A DNA stretch of 5,663 bases from Planctomycetota bacterium (lineage in GTDB: Bacteria > Planctomycetota > PUPC01 > JACPCR01): contig JASLXP010001266.1 in the NCBI GenBank assembly GCA_030740295.1, forward strand, positions 1 to 5,663. The letters run 5' to 3'. Shown here piece after piece: positions 1-5,663 of the stretch. The notes below the pieces were generated by a model, which had not been told where the DNA came from, made no database searches, and was given only the letters and a program-made list of their open reading frames with translations. Both the position numbers and the translations under genes were made by a program. Numbering within the stretch: position 1 is the first letter of the stretch; each line of letters opens with the position of its first letter.

Positions 1-585
1 GACATGCGTTTCGATGACGGCGATATCTTTCTTCAGCAAATGAAGGGCTGGTTTAATGAACACATGCCCGAAGTGAACACGGTCCTCAAGAGGAAGTCCG
101 GCGTTTACACCCAGGACGATGATGCGCTGATCGGGGAATTGAAAGAGAAAAGCGACGCCGCGGTCGTCGCCATCGGCCATTGAAGTACCTGCGCGCCGGC
201 GGTCGCCGGCTATTGTCTGATGCTGGAAATCCAGCACGGAATCCCCACCGCTTCGATACAGACCGATGCCTTCGAGACAGCCGTCAAGCAATCGGCTTTT
301 GCGAACGGCCTTCCTGACCAGCGATTCGTTTTTGTGCCTCAGCCCGTCATGGGCAAGCCGCCGGCCGAGCTCAGGGCATACGTCGATGGTGACGATCCGG
401 TAACCGGCCGGGCGGTCATGGTGGAAGTGGTCGAAGCGCTTACCGGCCCGTTGACTGATGAGGAGAACCATGAGCATTTGGGCAGACTGCTTTATTCGTG
501 CTGCGATTGGCCGATTCCAGGTGGGGGGAGCGTCCCCATTGCCAGGAAACGGCCACAGATCTGTGGCCTCCGAAAGAGGGTATAG
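1..585 (+). CDS. UGSC-family selenoprotein (5' partial, in-frame TGA read as selenocysteine)
   Basis: The frame is open from the window edge to TAG at 583-585, apart from one TGA at codon 61, and codes for 194 residues if that codon is selenocysteine. Sequence before and after the TGA reads as one continuous domain. It has a hydrophobic strand, AAVVAIGH (53-60), then U61-S-T-C64, a helix with LE followed by GIPTASIQTDAF, and a VFVPQPVMGKPPAEL strand/loop. From memory this is the layout of the UGSC (seleno)protein family, in which a UxxC or CxxC redox motif follows a V-x-G-x-G-type strand. The exact reaction of the family is not known to me; thiol/selenol redox chemistry is inferred from the motif. 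No signal peptide is visible, but the N-terminus is missing. Family-like sequence ends near residue 155 (LTGPLTDEE). The tail (160-194) carries a vicinal Cys pair (C167, C168) and runs over inverted repeats, so it may not be native. The alternative is a short ORF ending at 183 plus a separate gene starting at ATG 220; I consider this unlikely because the domain would be cut at its active site. Confidence 0.8.
181..183 (+). other. Candidate selenocysteine (UGA) codon
   Basis: This TGA is in frame with both the upstream coding sequence (1-180) and the downstream ORF (to 585). The 12 codons between it and the first downstream ATG (220) are open and encode STCAPAVAGYCL, which supplies the second redox cysteine and the following helix. 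The residue sits at the U/C position of a UxxC redox motif. In relatives of the family that position is Cys or Sec. A SECIS-like hairpin follows at the right distance. ATG 220 has no convincing Shine-Dalgarno sequence just upstream, which argues against a restart there. Confidence 0.8.
195..210 (+). promoter_or_regulatory. Bacterial SECIS-like hairpin
   Basis: Positions 195-200 (GCCGGC) pair perfectly with 205-210 (GCCGGC) around a four-base loop, GGTC (201-204). The loop begins 17 bases after the UGA. Bacterial SECIS elements lie inside the coding region just after the UGA and have a short apical loop with G at one of its first positions. The E. coli fdhF element, as I recall it, also shows GGUC in its apical loop at a similar distance. 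I do not see an obvious bulged U or a long lower stem, but these are not conserved in all bacterial elements. The expected role is to bind SelB with Sec-tRNA and direct decoding of the UGA at 181. Confidence 0.65.
525..537 (+). repeat. Short inverted repeat GGGGA-GCG-TCCCC
   Basis: GGGGA (525-529) and TCCCC (533-537) are perfect inverted copies around a three-base spacer, within a G-rich run. On the minus strand it reads GGGGACGCTCCCC. From memory, this resembles the compact GGGGAC...TCCCC hairpins found in REP-type repeats linked to Y1/IS200-like transposases in several bacterial phyla. No transposase is present in the window, so that link is only suggestive. It lies inside the tail of the selenoprotein frame. 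Confidence 0.5.
551..568 (+). repeat. Perfect 18-bp palindrome
   Basis: GGCCACAGATCTGTGGCC is identical to its reverse complement over all 18 bases. In RNA it could form a 7-bp stem with a GATC loop (551-557 pairing with 562-568). It begins 13 bases after the GGGGA/TCCCC repeat and ends 15 bases before the TAG that closes the selenoprotein frame. No T-run follows, so it is not a canonical intrinsic terminator. It could be part of a repeat element, an operator for a dimeric regulator, or the end of an insertion. The palindrome itself is certain; its role is not. Confidence 0.6.
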
Positions 586-686: not shown

Positions 687-1718
687 ATGATGAAGCGCGC
701 ACCGTTTGAGTTGGGCCCCATTCGACCGGTCGATGAGGGCGACAGCCTGCTGATCCGCACCACCCGCGGGTGCCCGTGGAACCGGTGCGAGTTCTGCGTT
801 AACTTCGAGGACATGCAGTTTTCCATGCGGTCCGTTGACGACATCAAGAAGGACATCGTTGCGGCTGCCGAGTACTACGGGGGCCATCCGTTCCGTTCGT
901 GTTTCCTGCAGGACGGCGACAGCTTCATCATGAAAACGAAGGACCTTCTAGAGGTCCTTACCTTCCTGAAGCAACACTTCCCTTCTCTCGAACGAGTGTC
1001 CAGCTACGGCCGTGCTTATACCATGATCAGGAAGGGCCCTCAGGAAATCCAGGACATCCACGACGCGGGACTCACGCTGCTCTACTGCGGCATGGAATCG
1101 GGCTCAGACAAGGTGCTCAAGAACGTAAGGAAAGGAGTCCTTTCCGCGGACATCATCAAGTCCGCGCAGATGGCAAAGTCAGCGGGGATGGGAATATCCG
1201 AATTCATCATTCTCGGGCTGGGAGGTACCGCACTGTGGGAGGAGCACGCGACGGAGACGGCTCGGGTACTGAACGAAATCAACCCCGATGCCATCCGGGT
1301 CCTGACCATAGGCGTGAAGCATGGCTCGGGGCTTGAGAGGCAGATGGAGGAAGGGACCTACAAACTGCAGACAGAGAAGAACATCATCGAGGAACAGCGC
1401 CTCTTGATCGAAAGTCTTGACGGCATCACCAGCTACTACGTCAACCATCACGGCGTTGACCTGCTCATGGAGGCTCGAGGCCAGTTCCCGAAGGACAAGC
1501 CACGGCTGCTGGCCATCATGGACCGGTACCTCAATATGCCGGAGGACGAGCGGACCAACTACACGCTCGGGAAACGGCTGGGGTACTACCATTGCATGGA
1601 TGATATGGAGAAGCAGGCAGTGAAGACCGAGGTCGAAGCGAAGGTCAGGGAGGTGCAGGAGGCGTACCCCGACCAACTGGAGGAGATATTCCATCACCTG
1701 CGGGAGAGAGTGGTCTAG
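687..1718 (+). CDS. Radical SAM protein (C-x4-C-x2-C cluster motif), function unknown
   Basis: The 343-residue product has a radical SAM core. TRGCPWNRCEFC places cysteines at 29, 34 and 37 to bind the [4Fe-4S] cluster that cleaves S-adenosylmethionine. The first two are separated by four residues rather than the usual three. Further core elements are FLQDGDSF after the cluster loop, the YCGMESGS motif (133-140) typical of SAM-ribose contact, and the strand-turn EFIILGLGG (172-180). The C-terminal region, with SSY-like, YYVNHHGVDLLMEARG and LGKRLGYY segments, looks like a conserved family-specific domain. From memory, close relatives are annotated only as radical SAM proteins, mainly in anaerobes, and the substrate is unknown. 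The start is ATG 687, with AGGA at 677-680 six bases upstream; ATG 690 is also possible. The frame is closed upstream by TGA at 645-647. It lies 101 bases after the selenoprotein stop and may be cotranscribed with it. The protein looks cytoplasmic. Confidence 0.9.
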   Translation: MMKRAPFELGPIRPVDEGDSLLIRTTRGCPWNRCEFCVNFEDMQFSMRSVDDIKKDIVAAAEYYGGHPFRSCFLQDGDSFIMKTKDLLEVLTFLKQHFPSLERVSSYGRAYTMIRKGPQEIQDIHDAGLTLLYCGMESGSDKVLKNVRKGVLSADIIKSAQMAKSAGMGISEFIILGLGGTALWEEHATETARVLNEINPDAIRVLTIGVKHGSGLERQMEEGTYKLQTEKNIIEEQRLLIESLDGITSYYVNHHGVDLLMEARGQFPKDKPRLLAIMDRYLNMPEDERTNYTLGKRLGYYHCMDDMEKQAVKTEVEAKVREVQEAYPDQLEEIFHHLRERVV

Positions 1719-1821: not shown

Positions 1822-4785
1822 ATGATCACACTCGCTCTACTGCTCAGTTTGGTTCCATCAGGTCGTGCGGAGTACATCCGCAACGGAGAATTCGAGGCCG
1901 CTGAACTTGGTCCGTGGAGAATTCAGAAGTGGAGCGGCGAGTGTTCCATCAGGCTTGATTCCGGATTCGTTCAGAGCGGCGGTCGTTCCGTTGCATTCGA
2001 ATCCAGCGCGAGGTGCAAAATCGCACTGAAGCAGGACCTGGGAAAACTGCCTGCAGGGAGCTATTCACTTAAGGGATATGTTCGTGCCATAAATCTGCGT
2101 GCCGGCCGATGGAAGCGGACCTTTCTGATTGGCCTTGAGACTCCGCAGAAGGAACTGTTCCTGGACAATCTTCCCGCAGGCACTTACGGATGGAAGCCAT
2201 TCGAACGACACTACAAACTTGATCAACCTATCGACGCCAGGCTTTACCTTTACCTGTTCGGTCCCGGAAGAATCTGGCTCGACAGCCTGCGTTTCGAGCG
2301 CAATGAGAAAAGTGTAGCCGGCAAAGGAGTCGCAATGGGCGATGAGAAGGGAACGCTCGCTCGTGACATCGCGGCCAGCAAAGGCGACGTCCGTTGTCCG
2401 CATTGCCGTGGTGGTCACGAAAGGGATGTGCGGAATTGTCGTTTTTGCGGATTCGACATTGCCTCGGCCAGGATGGCGGATGAGGAGTTTAAGCTGATCA
2501 GCAGCGGGCACGAAATCGTCGGGCCGGACCTCCTTCGGAATGGGAGTTTTGATGAAAAAGGAAGGGGAACGAATTGTCCCTTCGTTGGTTGGGCAGCTCG
2601 TTCGATGCTCGGTGGGAAGCACTCTTTCGAACTCGCGCCGGGCCGCACTGGAATGGCGGCGAAGATCACAGCCGGCAAAGCCGGTCGGGGCGATATTCAC
2701 AACCTTCAGGATGTCGTCATCAAAGCCGGAAGCATCCTCAGATTCCGATTCTGGGCGAAAGCAGAAAAACTGAACGGTGGCGTATCGGTGTGGTTCGAAG
2801 GTGATCCAGGTGAGGGCTGGCACAAGATCAATGTGGACAGCAGTGCAAAGGACTGGACGCTTTTCGAGACCCGTGTCCGAGTCCCTGAAGGAAAGAACGG
2901 ACAGACCAAACCTGCGATTCAATTCTGGTTCTATAACTGGGGCACCGGTTCCATTCTGTTCGACGACATCAGCGCCGCGGTGGTCCGGCCTGATCCCGGT
3001 GGCGCGGTAAAGGACGAACTACGCCGACTACTGCGACTCGTGAGGGAAGGCATTGGTTTAACGGATTCGCCTCCCGAATCTATGAAGGCATGCAAAGACA
3101 TCGAAGCAGCGCTGCTTGATGCGCTCAAAGATCCGCGGAACGCAGATACCAAATCATTGAAGCAGGGAGCTCTTTCTGCCCTCAGCGGCCGGCAACGCGG
3201 AGACGGGACATTTGTTCTAGGCGTCACGCACAGTGTGGAGAAAGTCTTTCTCGACGAGCCTTTCCAGGGCAGCATTGCGCAGTCGATGCACATTACGCTG
3301 GCACAGAATGAATCTGAAGCCGCGCAGTTGGTGGTGCTTTCCGCAGACAGACCACTGAACAATGTCCGCGTTTCCCTCAGCGGGGATCTGAAGTCGCAGG
3401 AGACCGGGGCTGCCTTCCCATCGGAACAGGTGCGCATCAGTCTGATCGGTTATGTGGATACGACCGCGGGTAAACGTCCTTACCAGTCGAAGAAGCTCGG
3501 CTGGTGGCCGGATCCGCTGCTGCCGAATGCCGCTTTCGATGTGAAAGCGGGCGAAGCCCAGCCGCTCCTTGTGACGGTCACGGCCCGTGGAGACACGAAG
3601 CCTGGCCCATACTCAGGCAAGATCTCAGTGACTGCCAACTCATCGAAGATCGAAATACCATTCCATGTGGAGGTACTTCCTTTCGCTCTGCCTCAACGGC
3701 GCACTTATACGTCCTTTGCTTTTGGATGCTCTCCGAAACTCGTGGCCCGGCATTATGGAAGCGACCCAGACCAGAAGATCATGAAGCGTTTCGTCATCAA
3801 GGCATGCAAACGCGGCCTTCCTCCGACCGATCTTCTTAACGGCTGGGCGTGGGCCAGGCCGAAGCCTCCGAAGCTGGCGGGAGGGGGATATGATTTTTCC
3901 GAGCTCGACCGATGGATCGACATCTTCAAGCAACATGGCCTGTCGCGCTTTCCAATGGCCATAGTGCCGCGATTCAAAAAGTGGGGCGGCGGGGACTACA
4001 CGAAGAAATGGAAAACAGACTTCGCCGATTTCCTCAGGGCTTACGCCGATCACCTCAAGCACAGGGGCATCCTGGAGAAGGCCATCATTTACAACATCGA
4101 TGAAGCTGCCAGGTCAAAAGGCGAATGGGATATCTGCAAGGCCCTATACAAGCTGTGCAAGCAAGCCGTGCCTGGCGTCCCCGTCGTGCAATGCCTCAAC
4201 GAGCCCAGTGGCGTGAAGGCGATTTCCGGGCATGCCAACATCTGGGATCTGTATTACGGCCAGTACGAGAGGGCCGGCGGCCCGGATCAGCTTAAGGCGG
4301 GGAGCGAAATCATTCTTTCAGTCTGCATCTACCCGAGCGTGCATCCGAACCTCTTCATCGAGTATCCACTTCTCGATGCTCGCATCCTTCCCTGGATCGG
4401 CTTCCGCGTCGGCGCAAAAGGCTTCGAATACTGGGACATGTTTCAGTGGGGCGAAAACATCGGAAAGCGCGACTGGGTCAAGAACGGAGACGGGACACGG
4501 ACTGCATGGAAACTCCGGAAACCGCATGGCGACGGCCTCCTCATGTACCCTGGCCCTGACGGGATGCCGCTCTCCAGCCTCCGTCTGGAGTCTTTTCGAG
4601 ACGGTCTTGAAGACTACGAGTACCTGCACCTGTTGTCCGGGATCAGTAAGACCGATCCGGTCGCGGCGTCCCTGGTGAAAGAGGCCAGAGAAGTCATCGT
4701 CACCGGCGTAACAGGCCATGTGAAGGAGCCATCGAAACTCCTGGACCTGCGACGTCGGATCGGCAAAAAGCTGTCTGAGCGATAA
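1822..4785 (+). CDS. Secreted GH123-like glycosidase with DUF4091 domain and two jelly-roll modules
   Basis: The product has 987 residues. It has a short signal peptide (hydrophobic ITLALLLSLV, probable cleavage after GRA at residue 16), so it is probably exported. A carbohydrate-binding-type jelly roll follows (about 17-160, starting YIRNGEFE). Then comes a zinc-ribbon-like motif, C192-x2-C195-x10-C206-x2-C209. A second jelly roll (about 236-388, LLRNGSFD to SILFDDIS) and a helical linker (about 390-455) follow. A beta-sandwich (about 463-625) precedes a TIM-barrel region. IIYNIDEA holds an adjacent D760-E761 pair, matching the Asp-Glu pair used in substrate-assisted catalysis by GH123 beta-N-acetylgalactosaminidases. 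The barrel continues through GFEYWDMFQWGEN and ends in the DUF4091 signature, RLESFRDGLEDYEYL (about 920-937). Hydrolysis of N-acetylhexosamine-containing glycans is inferred; the substrate is not established. ATG 1822 is the only plausible start, because TAA closes the frame at 1795-1797. There is no clear Shine-Dalgarno sequence. Confidence 0.88.
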   Translation: MITLALLLSLVPSGRAEYIRNGEFEAAELGPWRIQKWSGECSIRLDSGFVQSGGRSVAFESSARCKIALKQDLGKLPAGSYSLKGYVRAINLRAGRWKRTFLIGLETPQKELFLDNLPAGTYGWKPFERHYKLDQPIDARLYLYLFGPGRIWLDSLRFERNEKSVAGKGVAMGDEKGTLARDIAASKGDVRCPHCRGGHERDVRNCRFCGFDIASARMADEEFKLISSGHEIVGPDLLRNGSFDEKGRGTNCPFVGWAARSMLGGKHSFELAPGRTGMAAKITAGKAGRGDIHNLQDVVIKAGSILRFRFWAKAEKLNGGVSVWFEGDPGEGWHKINVDSSAKDWTLFETRVRVPEGKNGQTKPAIQFWFYNWGTGSILFDDISAAVVRPDPGGAVKDELRRLLRLVREGIGLTDSPPESMKACKDIEAALLDALKDPRNADTKSLKQGALSALSGRQRGDGTFVLGVTHSVEKVFLDEPFQGSIAQSMHITLAQNESEAAQLVVLSADRPLNNVRVSLSGDLKSQETGAAFPSEQVRISLIGYVDTTAGKRPYQSKKLGWWPDPLLPNAAFDVKAGEAQPLLVTVTARGDTKPGPYSGKISVTANSSKIEIPFHVEVLPFALPQRRTYTSFAFGCSPKLVARHYGSDPDQKIMKRFVIKACKRGLPPTDLLNGWAWARPKPPKLAGGGYDFSELDRWIDIFKQHGLSRFPMAIVPRFKKWGGGDYTKKWKTDFADFLRAYADHLKHRGILEKAIIYNIDEAARSKGEWDICKALYKLCKQAVPGVPVVQCLNEPSGVKAISGHANIWDLYYGQYERAGGPDQLKAGSEIILSVCIYPSVHPNLFIEYPLLDARILPWIGFRVGAKGFEYWDMFQWGENIGKRDWVKNGDGTRTAWKLRKPHGDGLLMYPGPDGMPLSSLRLESFRDGLEDYEYLHLLSGISKTDPVAASLVKEAREVIVTGVTGHVKEPSKLLDLRRRIGKKLSER

Positions 4786-4799
4786 AGCAGAACCAAAGC

Positions 4800-4824
4800 A
4801 GTTCACAGCTACTCGGTGTGAACT
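4800..4824 (+). terminator. 8-bp perfect hairpin between the two secreted-protein genes
   Basis: AGTTCACA (4800-4807) and TGTGAACT (4817-4824) are perfect inverted copies around a nine-base loop. It lies 14 bases after the glycosidase stop codon and 26 bases before the next start. It is followed by CCCCGC rather than a T-run, so classic intrinsic termination is doubtful. It could be an operator-like site, an mRNA-processing or stabilising hairpin between two cotranscribed genes, or an attenuator. Confidence 0.4.
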
Positions 4825-4850
4825 CCCCGCAGAAGAAGAGTAACCGTGTC

Positions 4851-5663
4851 ATGAGTCACATCAGATGTTCCGGCGGCAGCATTCTGCGTCGGGGCCTTCT
4901 TCTCTTCCTTGTCACGCAGCATGGCCTGCCGGCACAGGTGAGGGACGAACAAAAGGTATCAGGTGAACGGCTGGGGAATATGAAGGCCAGCACTCCACCG
5001 GAAGTTGTCAATGAAGTGTGGGAGCAGTTCTGTCTGGCGCACTTCGGGGCAGAGAAAGAACCGATGGTCTACGAATTCTATGGCAGGGAACTCGCCGTCA
5101 TCGATGAAGGAACCTGGCTGCACGCGTCTGAGACTTCAGCCTGCATTGCGTGGGAGACCAATCTGCCGGCAAGAGCGCACGTGGAGTACGGACTGACGCC
5201 CGATTGCAGCGAGAAGACGCATCCCGGAAGGAGGCCCTTCTACGTTCATGTTCACTACCTGACCGACCTGAAGCCAAAGGCCCAATATCACTACCGAATA
5301 GTCTCTGTGGATGAGCGTGGTAATCGACTTGCCTCACAGACCCGGACGTTCAAGACGATCGCGCTGGCGGCGGCGGTGCACGTTCCTGGCGACCTGGATG
5401 GCCCTCCTTACATCCTGGACCGGCCGGGAGCGACTTACGTCGTTACTGAAGACATCACGGCAGACGGCACAGCGATTGAGATCGGCGCGGCAAACATCGC
5501 CTTAGACCTGAACGGCCACTCCATCACTTATCACAACAAGGACATTCCTGCAGAAACATTCACCGACAAGTGGATGAGTTATGTTCACAAGGGCGCGGTG
5601 GGAATCAAGAACTTCGGCCATTCAGGGCTCAAGCTCCTGAATGGTGTTATCAGGCAGGGGGCC
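4851..5663 (+). CDS. Secreted FN3-like plus parallel beta-helix protein (3' partial)
   Basis: The frame starts at ATG 4851 and is open to the window edge (271 codons), so the gene is cut off at its 3' end. The N-terminus looks like a signal peptide: Arg residues at 5, 13 and 14, the hydrophobic stretch GLLLFLV, and probable cleavage after LPA at residue 28. Residues about 86-169 form a fibronectin-III or purple-acid-phosphatase-N-like sandwich, with TWLHASETSACIAWETN, ARAHVEYGLT, and YLTDLKPKAQYHYRIVSVD ending in TRTFKT. From about 176 the sequence has the pattern of a right-handed parallel beta-helix: YVVTEDITADGTAIEIG, NIALDLNGHSITY and GIKNFGHSGLKLLNGVIRQG. That fold occurs in pectate-lyase-like polysaccharide lyases and surface proteins; catalytic residues would lie beyond the window. 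An AGAAGAAGAG purine run (4831-4840) lies ten bases before the ATG and could act as a ribosome site. It lies 65 bases downstream of the glycosidase gene on the same strand, suggesting joint expression. Confidence 0.82.
   Translation, partial: MSHIRCSGGSILRRGLLLFLVTQHGLPAQVRDEQKVSGERLGNMKASTPPEVVNEVWEQFCLAHFGAEKEPMVYEFYGRELAVIDEGTWLHASETSACIAWETNLPARAHVEYGLTPDCSEKTHPGRRPFYVHVHYLTDLKPKAQYHYRIVSVDERGNRLASQTRTFKTIALAAAVHVPGDLDGPPYILDRPGATYVVTEDITADGTAIEIGAANIALDLNGHSITYHNKDIPAETFTDKWMSYVHKGAVGIKNFGHSGLKLLNGVIRQGA

Follow-up and report, generated by a model that had tools for sequence, protein, structure and literature searches.

A short-form gene of the bacterial UGSC family with a predicted selenocysteine in a U-S-T-C motif

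The first gene of the window (the whole stretch of DNA that was analysed, 5,663 nucleotides) adds a new, shortened member to a bacterial selenoprotein family that has been described before but is little understood. It occupies 1..585 of the + strand. The best explanation of its sequence, in which we have high confidence, is that it would encode a bacterial UGSC-family (PF24696) selenoprotein of a G-H-U-S-T-C-A-P subfamily, with a predicted hairpin directing selenocysteine (Sec) to codon 61. The main interest lies in this USTC subfamily, which is under-annotated and carries hints of GrdB/PrdB-like chemistry, more than in the window gene itself.

Reading frame, family and the residue at codon 61

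A single in-frame TGA (181–183, + strand) interrupts frame 1, which otherwise runs open between base 1 and the TAG at 583–585. This TGA is codon 61 of the visible frame and is predicted to be read as Sec. The visible frame encodes 194 residues. Comparison with L001, the locus whose gene is most similar to that of the window, places the true start outside the window, together with some 50 N-terminal residues. A sequence-only reading had described a frame open on both sides of this TGA, with conserved sequence running through it. Both points are borne out, the second by a single match to the Pfam UGSC family (PF24696) that covers residues 8–128 and profile positions 40–159 of 172 (69.8 bits against a cut-off of 25). 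The off-window start of the gene was overlooked in that reading, as was the absence of the C-terminal region found in most Sec relatives. The same reading had put the TGA at the redox residue of the UGSC family, with a Cys three residues later. The position and the Cys (residue 64, TGC at 190..192, + strand) stand, and together they give a UxxC motif (U61, C64). The literal U-G-S-C motif does not stand: it is absent from the window protein, which has U-S-T-C instead.

Codon 61 was compared across relatives at the protein and the DNA level. The protein search found 137 relatives, of which 120 were listed. All 34 rows of alignment A3 have Cys, or Sec written as C, at codon 61, which is the outcome that the sequence-only reading had proposed looking for among homologues. 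A genome scan for loci encoding relatives found 141, and the best 80 were retained by similarity to the window. At the equivalent of codon 61, TGA occurs in 61 of these 80 and TGC in the remaining 19, with no third codon. The ranking of the loci by likeness to the window may have left Cys forms under-represented in these counts. The two codons fit the anticipated alternation of Sec and Cys at the site. S-T-C follows the site in 80/80 of the retained loci, and the Cys at +3 is present in all of them. One of these loci, L058, holds a second TGA copy. On this Terriglobia contig the TGA-containing UGSC genes lie at 2780 and 6559, about 3.8 kb apart, and the codons of the hairpin block described below are altered.

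Annotation of the family is affected by the TGA. For 75 of the 120 listed relatives the best alignment reaches back to codon 61 or beyond, and the other 45 begin after it, as expected if gene finders had halted at the TGA; the active site is missed in these 45 database entries. In the window, the ORF that remains from ATG 220 (220..585, + strand) encodes 121 amino acids and lacks the Sec site. The database protein P0002 is 99% identical over 121 residues, begins exactly at the position of ATG 220 and has the same unusual tail. The predicted mis-start, with loss of the active site, is therefore already on record in the database.

The naming models also separate this subfamily from the classical one. 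The window protein scores 61.6 bits on the NCBIfam UGSC model NF041046, below the cut-off of 125, and is therefore filed under the Pfam family and not under the NCBIfam equivalog. Six USTC-type proteins tested, the window protein included, score 54–78 bits on this model, whereas the classical protein L103 scores 152. The subfamily is thus under-annotated on two counts: all six tested members fall below the naming model, and the 45 listed relatives start past the Sec codon. Classical UGSC proteins (PF24696/NF041046) share with the window the Pfam domain, Sec in a UxxC motif and exchange of Sec with Cys; in an alignment that includes the window, classical U-G-S-C copies from the phylum to which L006's genome belongs have Sec in the same column. 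They differ in having U-G-S-C where the window has U-S-T-C, and L103 is 19–29% identical to the ten other aligned rows. Six classical U-G-S-C genes from that phylum (L103–L108) have an in-frame TGA followed by a predicted hairpin of a different kind.

According to the available portion of PMC2398784, the UGSC-containing family is a major family of the Global Ocean Sampling selenoproteome, one of its abundant environmental selenoproteins. The accessible literature on the family already covers the UxxC motif, the Cys homologues and a C-terminal fusion. The functions of such selenoprotein families are largely uncharacterized according to the accessible part of a 2026 review (PMC13188914). The portions available of PMC2398784, PMC13188914, PMC7539508, PMC9312934 and PMC1088965 make no mention of a USTC subfamily, of a reductase neighbour or of a relation to GrdB/PrdB, which leaves it unproven that these are unpublished.

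A predicted SECIS hairpin and the selenocysteine machinery

A predicted SECIS hairpin lies at 195..210 (+ strand), 14–29 nt downstream of the first base of the UGA. It has six pairs (195–200 with 205–210) and a GGUC loop (201–204). The constraints on bacterial SECIS elements given in the available text of PMC13188914 are a loop of 3–9 nt, a stem of 4–16 bp, a G in the first two loop positions, a spacing of 16–37 nt and an energy of −7.5 kcal/mol or lower. The window hairpin, with a 4 nt loop, 6 bp, GG, 17 nt from UGA to loop and −15.4 kcal/mol, lies within them. Its folding energy is not significant alone: with 200 shuffles for each of the four stretches evaluated, 165, 43, 21 and 16 gave an equal or better fold. 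The case for the putative element rests on a comparison between the Sec and the Cys forms, energy aside.

This comparison centers on a block of 12 bases (four codons), CCGGCGGTCGCC, at 196–207 (+ strand), which folds as GGC-GGUC-GCC. Of 62 Sec rows, made up of 61 loci and the window, 61 have it unchanged, and in the one exception, L058, the peptide is different. The same peptide, P-A-V-A, is encoded in 4 of the 19 Cys rows, where it is spelled in four other ways. Codons were counted in 63 Sec rows (the 61 loci, the second L058 copy and the window) and compared with the 19 Cys rows. At +5 from the TGA, CCG occurs in 61/63 Sec rows; at +6, GCG occurs in 63/63; at +7, all 61 rows with Val use GTC; and at +8, all 61 rows with Ala use GCC. 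At these four offsets the codons of the Cys rows are variable. Such freezing of codons in Sec forms, set against their variation in Cys forms, is a clean argument for a SECIS element without experiment.

The surroundings of the block are less uniform. Many relatives have a bulged base and a lower stem flanking it, whereas the window stem consists of six pairs with no bulge. The hairpin is not the fold of lowest energy for this stretch in L057 and L058. The element of Escherichia coli K-12 fdhF (NC_000913.3) has the same GGUC apical loop as the window, 18 nt after the UGA against 17. It belongs to another protein, and it has a bulge and three pairs where the window has six unbroken pairs. We propose that the hairpin would bind SelB carrying Sec-tRNA-Sec, and that ribosomes would in this way insert Sec at codon 61.

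The machinery for such insertion was sought by whole-genome searches of 49 genomes drawn from the 80 loci (31 with TGA, 18 with TGC). SelB scores over its cut-off in 31/31 TGA genomes vs 7/18 TGC genomes, SelA in 28/31 vs 7/18, and a tRNA-Sec of at least 66 bits is found in 26/31 vs 7/18. Fisher tests were run on these counts, with a looser count of 27/31 in the case of tRNA-Sec. The TGA genomes that lack a SelA match over cut-off are G001, G007 and G003 (a partial match at a contig end), and those that lack a tRNA-Sec are G001 (borderline at 54.8 bits), G020, G024, G025 and G030; gaps in the genomes may or may not account for these misses. In G001, which carries the most similar relative, SelB scores 360 bits and the SelA match, at 36.5 bits, stays below the cut-off. 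The Sec/Cys exchange, the hairpin block frozen in TGA forms only and the link of these forms with SelB-bearing genomes together support the view, first put forward in the sequence-only reading, that this is a genuine selenoprotein gene.

The short form and other readings of the TGA

The window gene is much shorter than its Sec relatives. In 53 of 57 closed Sec rows (window excluded) 447–450 codons follow the TGA, the exceptions having 482, 444, 408 and 199; in the window 133 follow. The region of about 315 C-terminal residues present in most Sec relatives is missing and has left no convincing trace within the window. An unrelated tail of about 36 residues (475..585, + strand), modeled with low confidence and common to P0002, stands in its place. 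The accessible text of PMC2398784 describes a fusion of UGSC with a C-terminal region termed ‘Unknown_1’. The layout of the 53 closed Sec rows is similar to this, without implying that their C-terminal region is ‘Unknown_1’; unlike that fusion, the window protein has no long C-terminal region. Stand-alone Cys members also occur in the family. The window gene is probably a stand-alone form that arose by loss of the C-terminal region, and its product probably acts as a stand-alone domain.

The main rival is decay: the gene would be that of a selenoprotein by ancestry, the window copy would have been degenerating since it lost its C-terminal region, and the UGA may no longer matter. We consider this unlikely. 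The difference in length, the absence of any remnant of the lost region and a long branch in the tree (0.47, against a median of 0.075) agree with it. Against it, the core retains 33 of 36 near-invariant positions, with three mild changes, and the frozen hairpin block is intact; the same short form is also present in a second sequence, P0002, and the stand-alone Cys members are a precedent for it. The differences between the window and L001 number 37, 23 and 90 at codon positions 1, 2 and 3 (149 codons); this concentration at position 3 indicates that the reading frame was under past selection.

It is much less probable still that the TGA is a true stop, produced by a pseudogene mutation or an assembly error that splits an ordinary Cys gene. 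The missing C-terminal region and the long branch would fit this as well. However, TGA stands at the same codon in the 61 relatives, from many phyla, the block is frozen at the level of bases in TGA forms only, and the near-invariant positions are kept as described above. P0002, which is 99% and not 100% identical, starts past the site, which is what a stop at that position in its own DNA would lead one to expect. A general sense use of UGA in the host (for example as Trp) would be compatible with the open frame, as any recoding would, but it is very improbable, as relatives have Cys and never Trp at the site, the SECIS-like hairpin is restricted to TGA forms, and the neighbouring ORFs at 687–1718 and 1822–4785 are open under table 11.

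The tree of the family counts in favour of a selenoprotein gene. It comprises 81 domain sequences. The TGA was read as X, so the Sec/Cys site does not itself drive the split. A single branch (support 100/99) separates the 19 Cys forms from all the other sequences. The window falls inside a starred set of 24 rows, all of them Sec. As the root is not shown, the tree does not give the direction of change between Sec and Cys. Going by the titles of their records, the Sec relatives belong to some ten phyla, namely Chloroflexota, Thermomicrobiota, Rokuibacteriota, Methylomirabilota, Latescibacterota, Poribacteria, Binatota, Myxococcota, Thermodesulfobacteriota and Acidobacteriota.

Possible chemistry and neighbouring genes

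In the predicted structure, an alternating alpha/beta domain, Sec sits in the loop that follows the third strand and precedes a helix, with the Cys three residues later. A thioredoxin fold has been suggested for UGSC, according to the accessible part of PMC2398784. Our models have alternating strands and helices, and the rows shown by VIA-align are mostly CheY-like or other Rossmann-like domains, a result that excludes no fold.

Comparison of profiles by hhalign shows that the Sec segment of the window family is like that of GrdB/PrdB (PF07355). The alignment covers 46 columns with Sec in register, at a probability of 91.6 with alignment A5 and 66.0 with A3. With A5 the score is 48.4, and 200 column shuffles reach no more than 25.9; A3 gives a weaker 40.5. 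The likeness is confined to these columns, and the N-terminal region of GrdB/PrdB is absent from the window protein, which at E <= 0.1 matches PF24696 and has no match to PF07355. Among the PF07355 loci themselves, all 13 full-length ones (L082–L087, L089–L092 and L094–L096) have a TGA where the Pfam match ends or no more than four codons from there. Past the TGA they have an open, conserved C-terminus, and the Pfam match stops before the Sec site. Shorter PF07355-like proteins with U-P-x-C motifs are encoded in L088 (~1750), L093 (~1912–1923) and L097 (~1921). In L093 both motif positions are TGA (U-P-I-U), which makes it a possible double selenoprotein.

In at least 11 of the best 80 of 141 loci, the family gene has a thioredoxin-reductase-like gene next to it. 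This number is a lower bound, as many loci end at contig edges. The reductase-like gene lies downstream on the same strand in ten loci and upstream in one; five of these loci are Sec forms and six are Cys forms, and a CxxC motif is present in all 11. Pyr_redox_2 (Pfam) was confirmed in the three neighbours tested (3/3), and the protein of L066 scores 292.9 for the NCBIfam thioredoxin reductase, below the cut-off of 343. The downstream neighbour in the window is a radical SAM gene and no reductase.

The reductase neighbour and the resemblance to GrdB/PrdB are two testable leads to the chemistry of the USTC subfamily. Sec would be the reactive nucleophile, the Cys may resolve it as a selenenylsulfide, and in lineages with the neighbour gene the thioredoxin-reductase-like flavoprotein would restore the selenol. 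We also put forward, tentatively and as somewhat doubtful, that UGSC/USTC proteins are a divergent GrdB/PrdB-type branch, which would cleave bonds reductively through the selenol rather than exchange disulfides as thioredoxin does, would be recharged by a dedicated thioredoxin-reductase-like flavoprotein, and would have in the window protein a minimal Sec-domain version. The reductive cleavage in this proposal draws on the Stickland chemistry of GrdB/PrdB, as given in the available text of PMC13188914 and as a matter of general knowledge.

Other genes occur near the family gene. A recurrent family, one member of which has 549 amino acids, lies upstream of or near it in 13 Sec loci, including L010, L025 and L048; the member tested (L048) has no Pfam match. 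In the window, 687–1718 (+ strand) encodes a stand-alone radical SAM protein of 343 amino acids with 1947 relatives at E <= 0.001. It falls under the cut-off for all 22 NCBIfam families that it matches, and its identical cluster is found on 8 contigs, the longest of which has 45,209 bases. Glycoside hydrolase 123 domains (GH123_cat, 92.4 bits) occur in the 987-amino-acid product of the following ORF, 1822–4785 (+ strand). A pair of motifs inside this product, CPHC and CRFC, resembles a small zinc ribbon, with a weak match to a zinc-finger family. The last ORF, 4818–5663 (+ strand), continues off the window; the protein that it begins to encode has a purple acid phosphatase N-terminal (fn3-like) domain.
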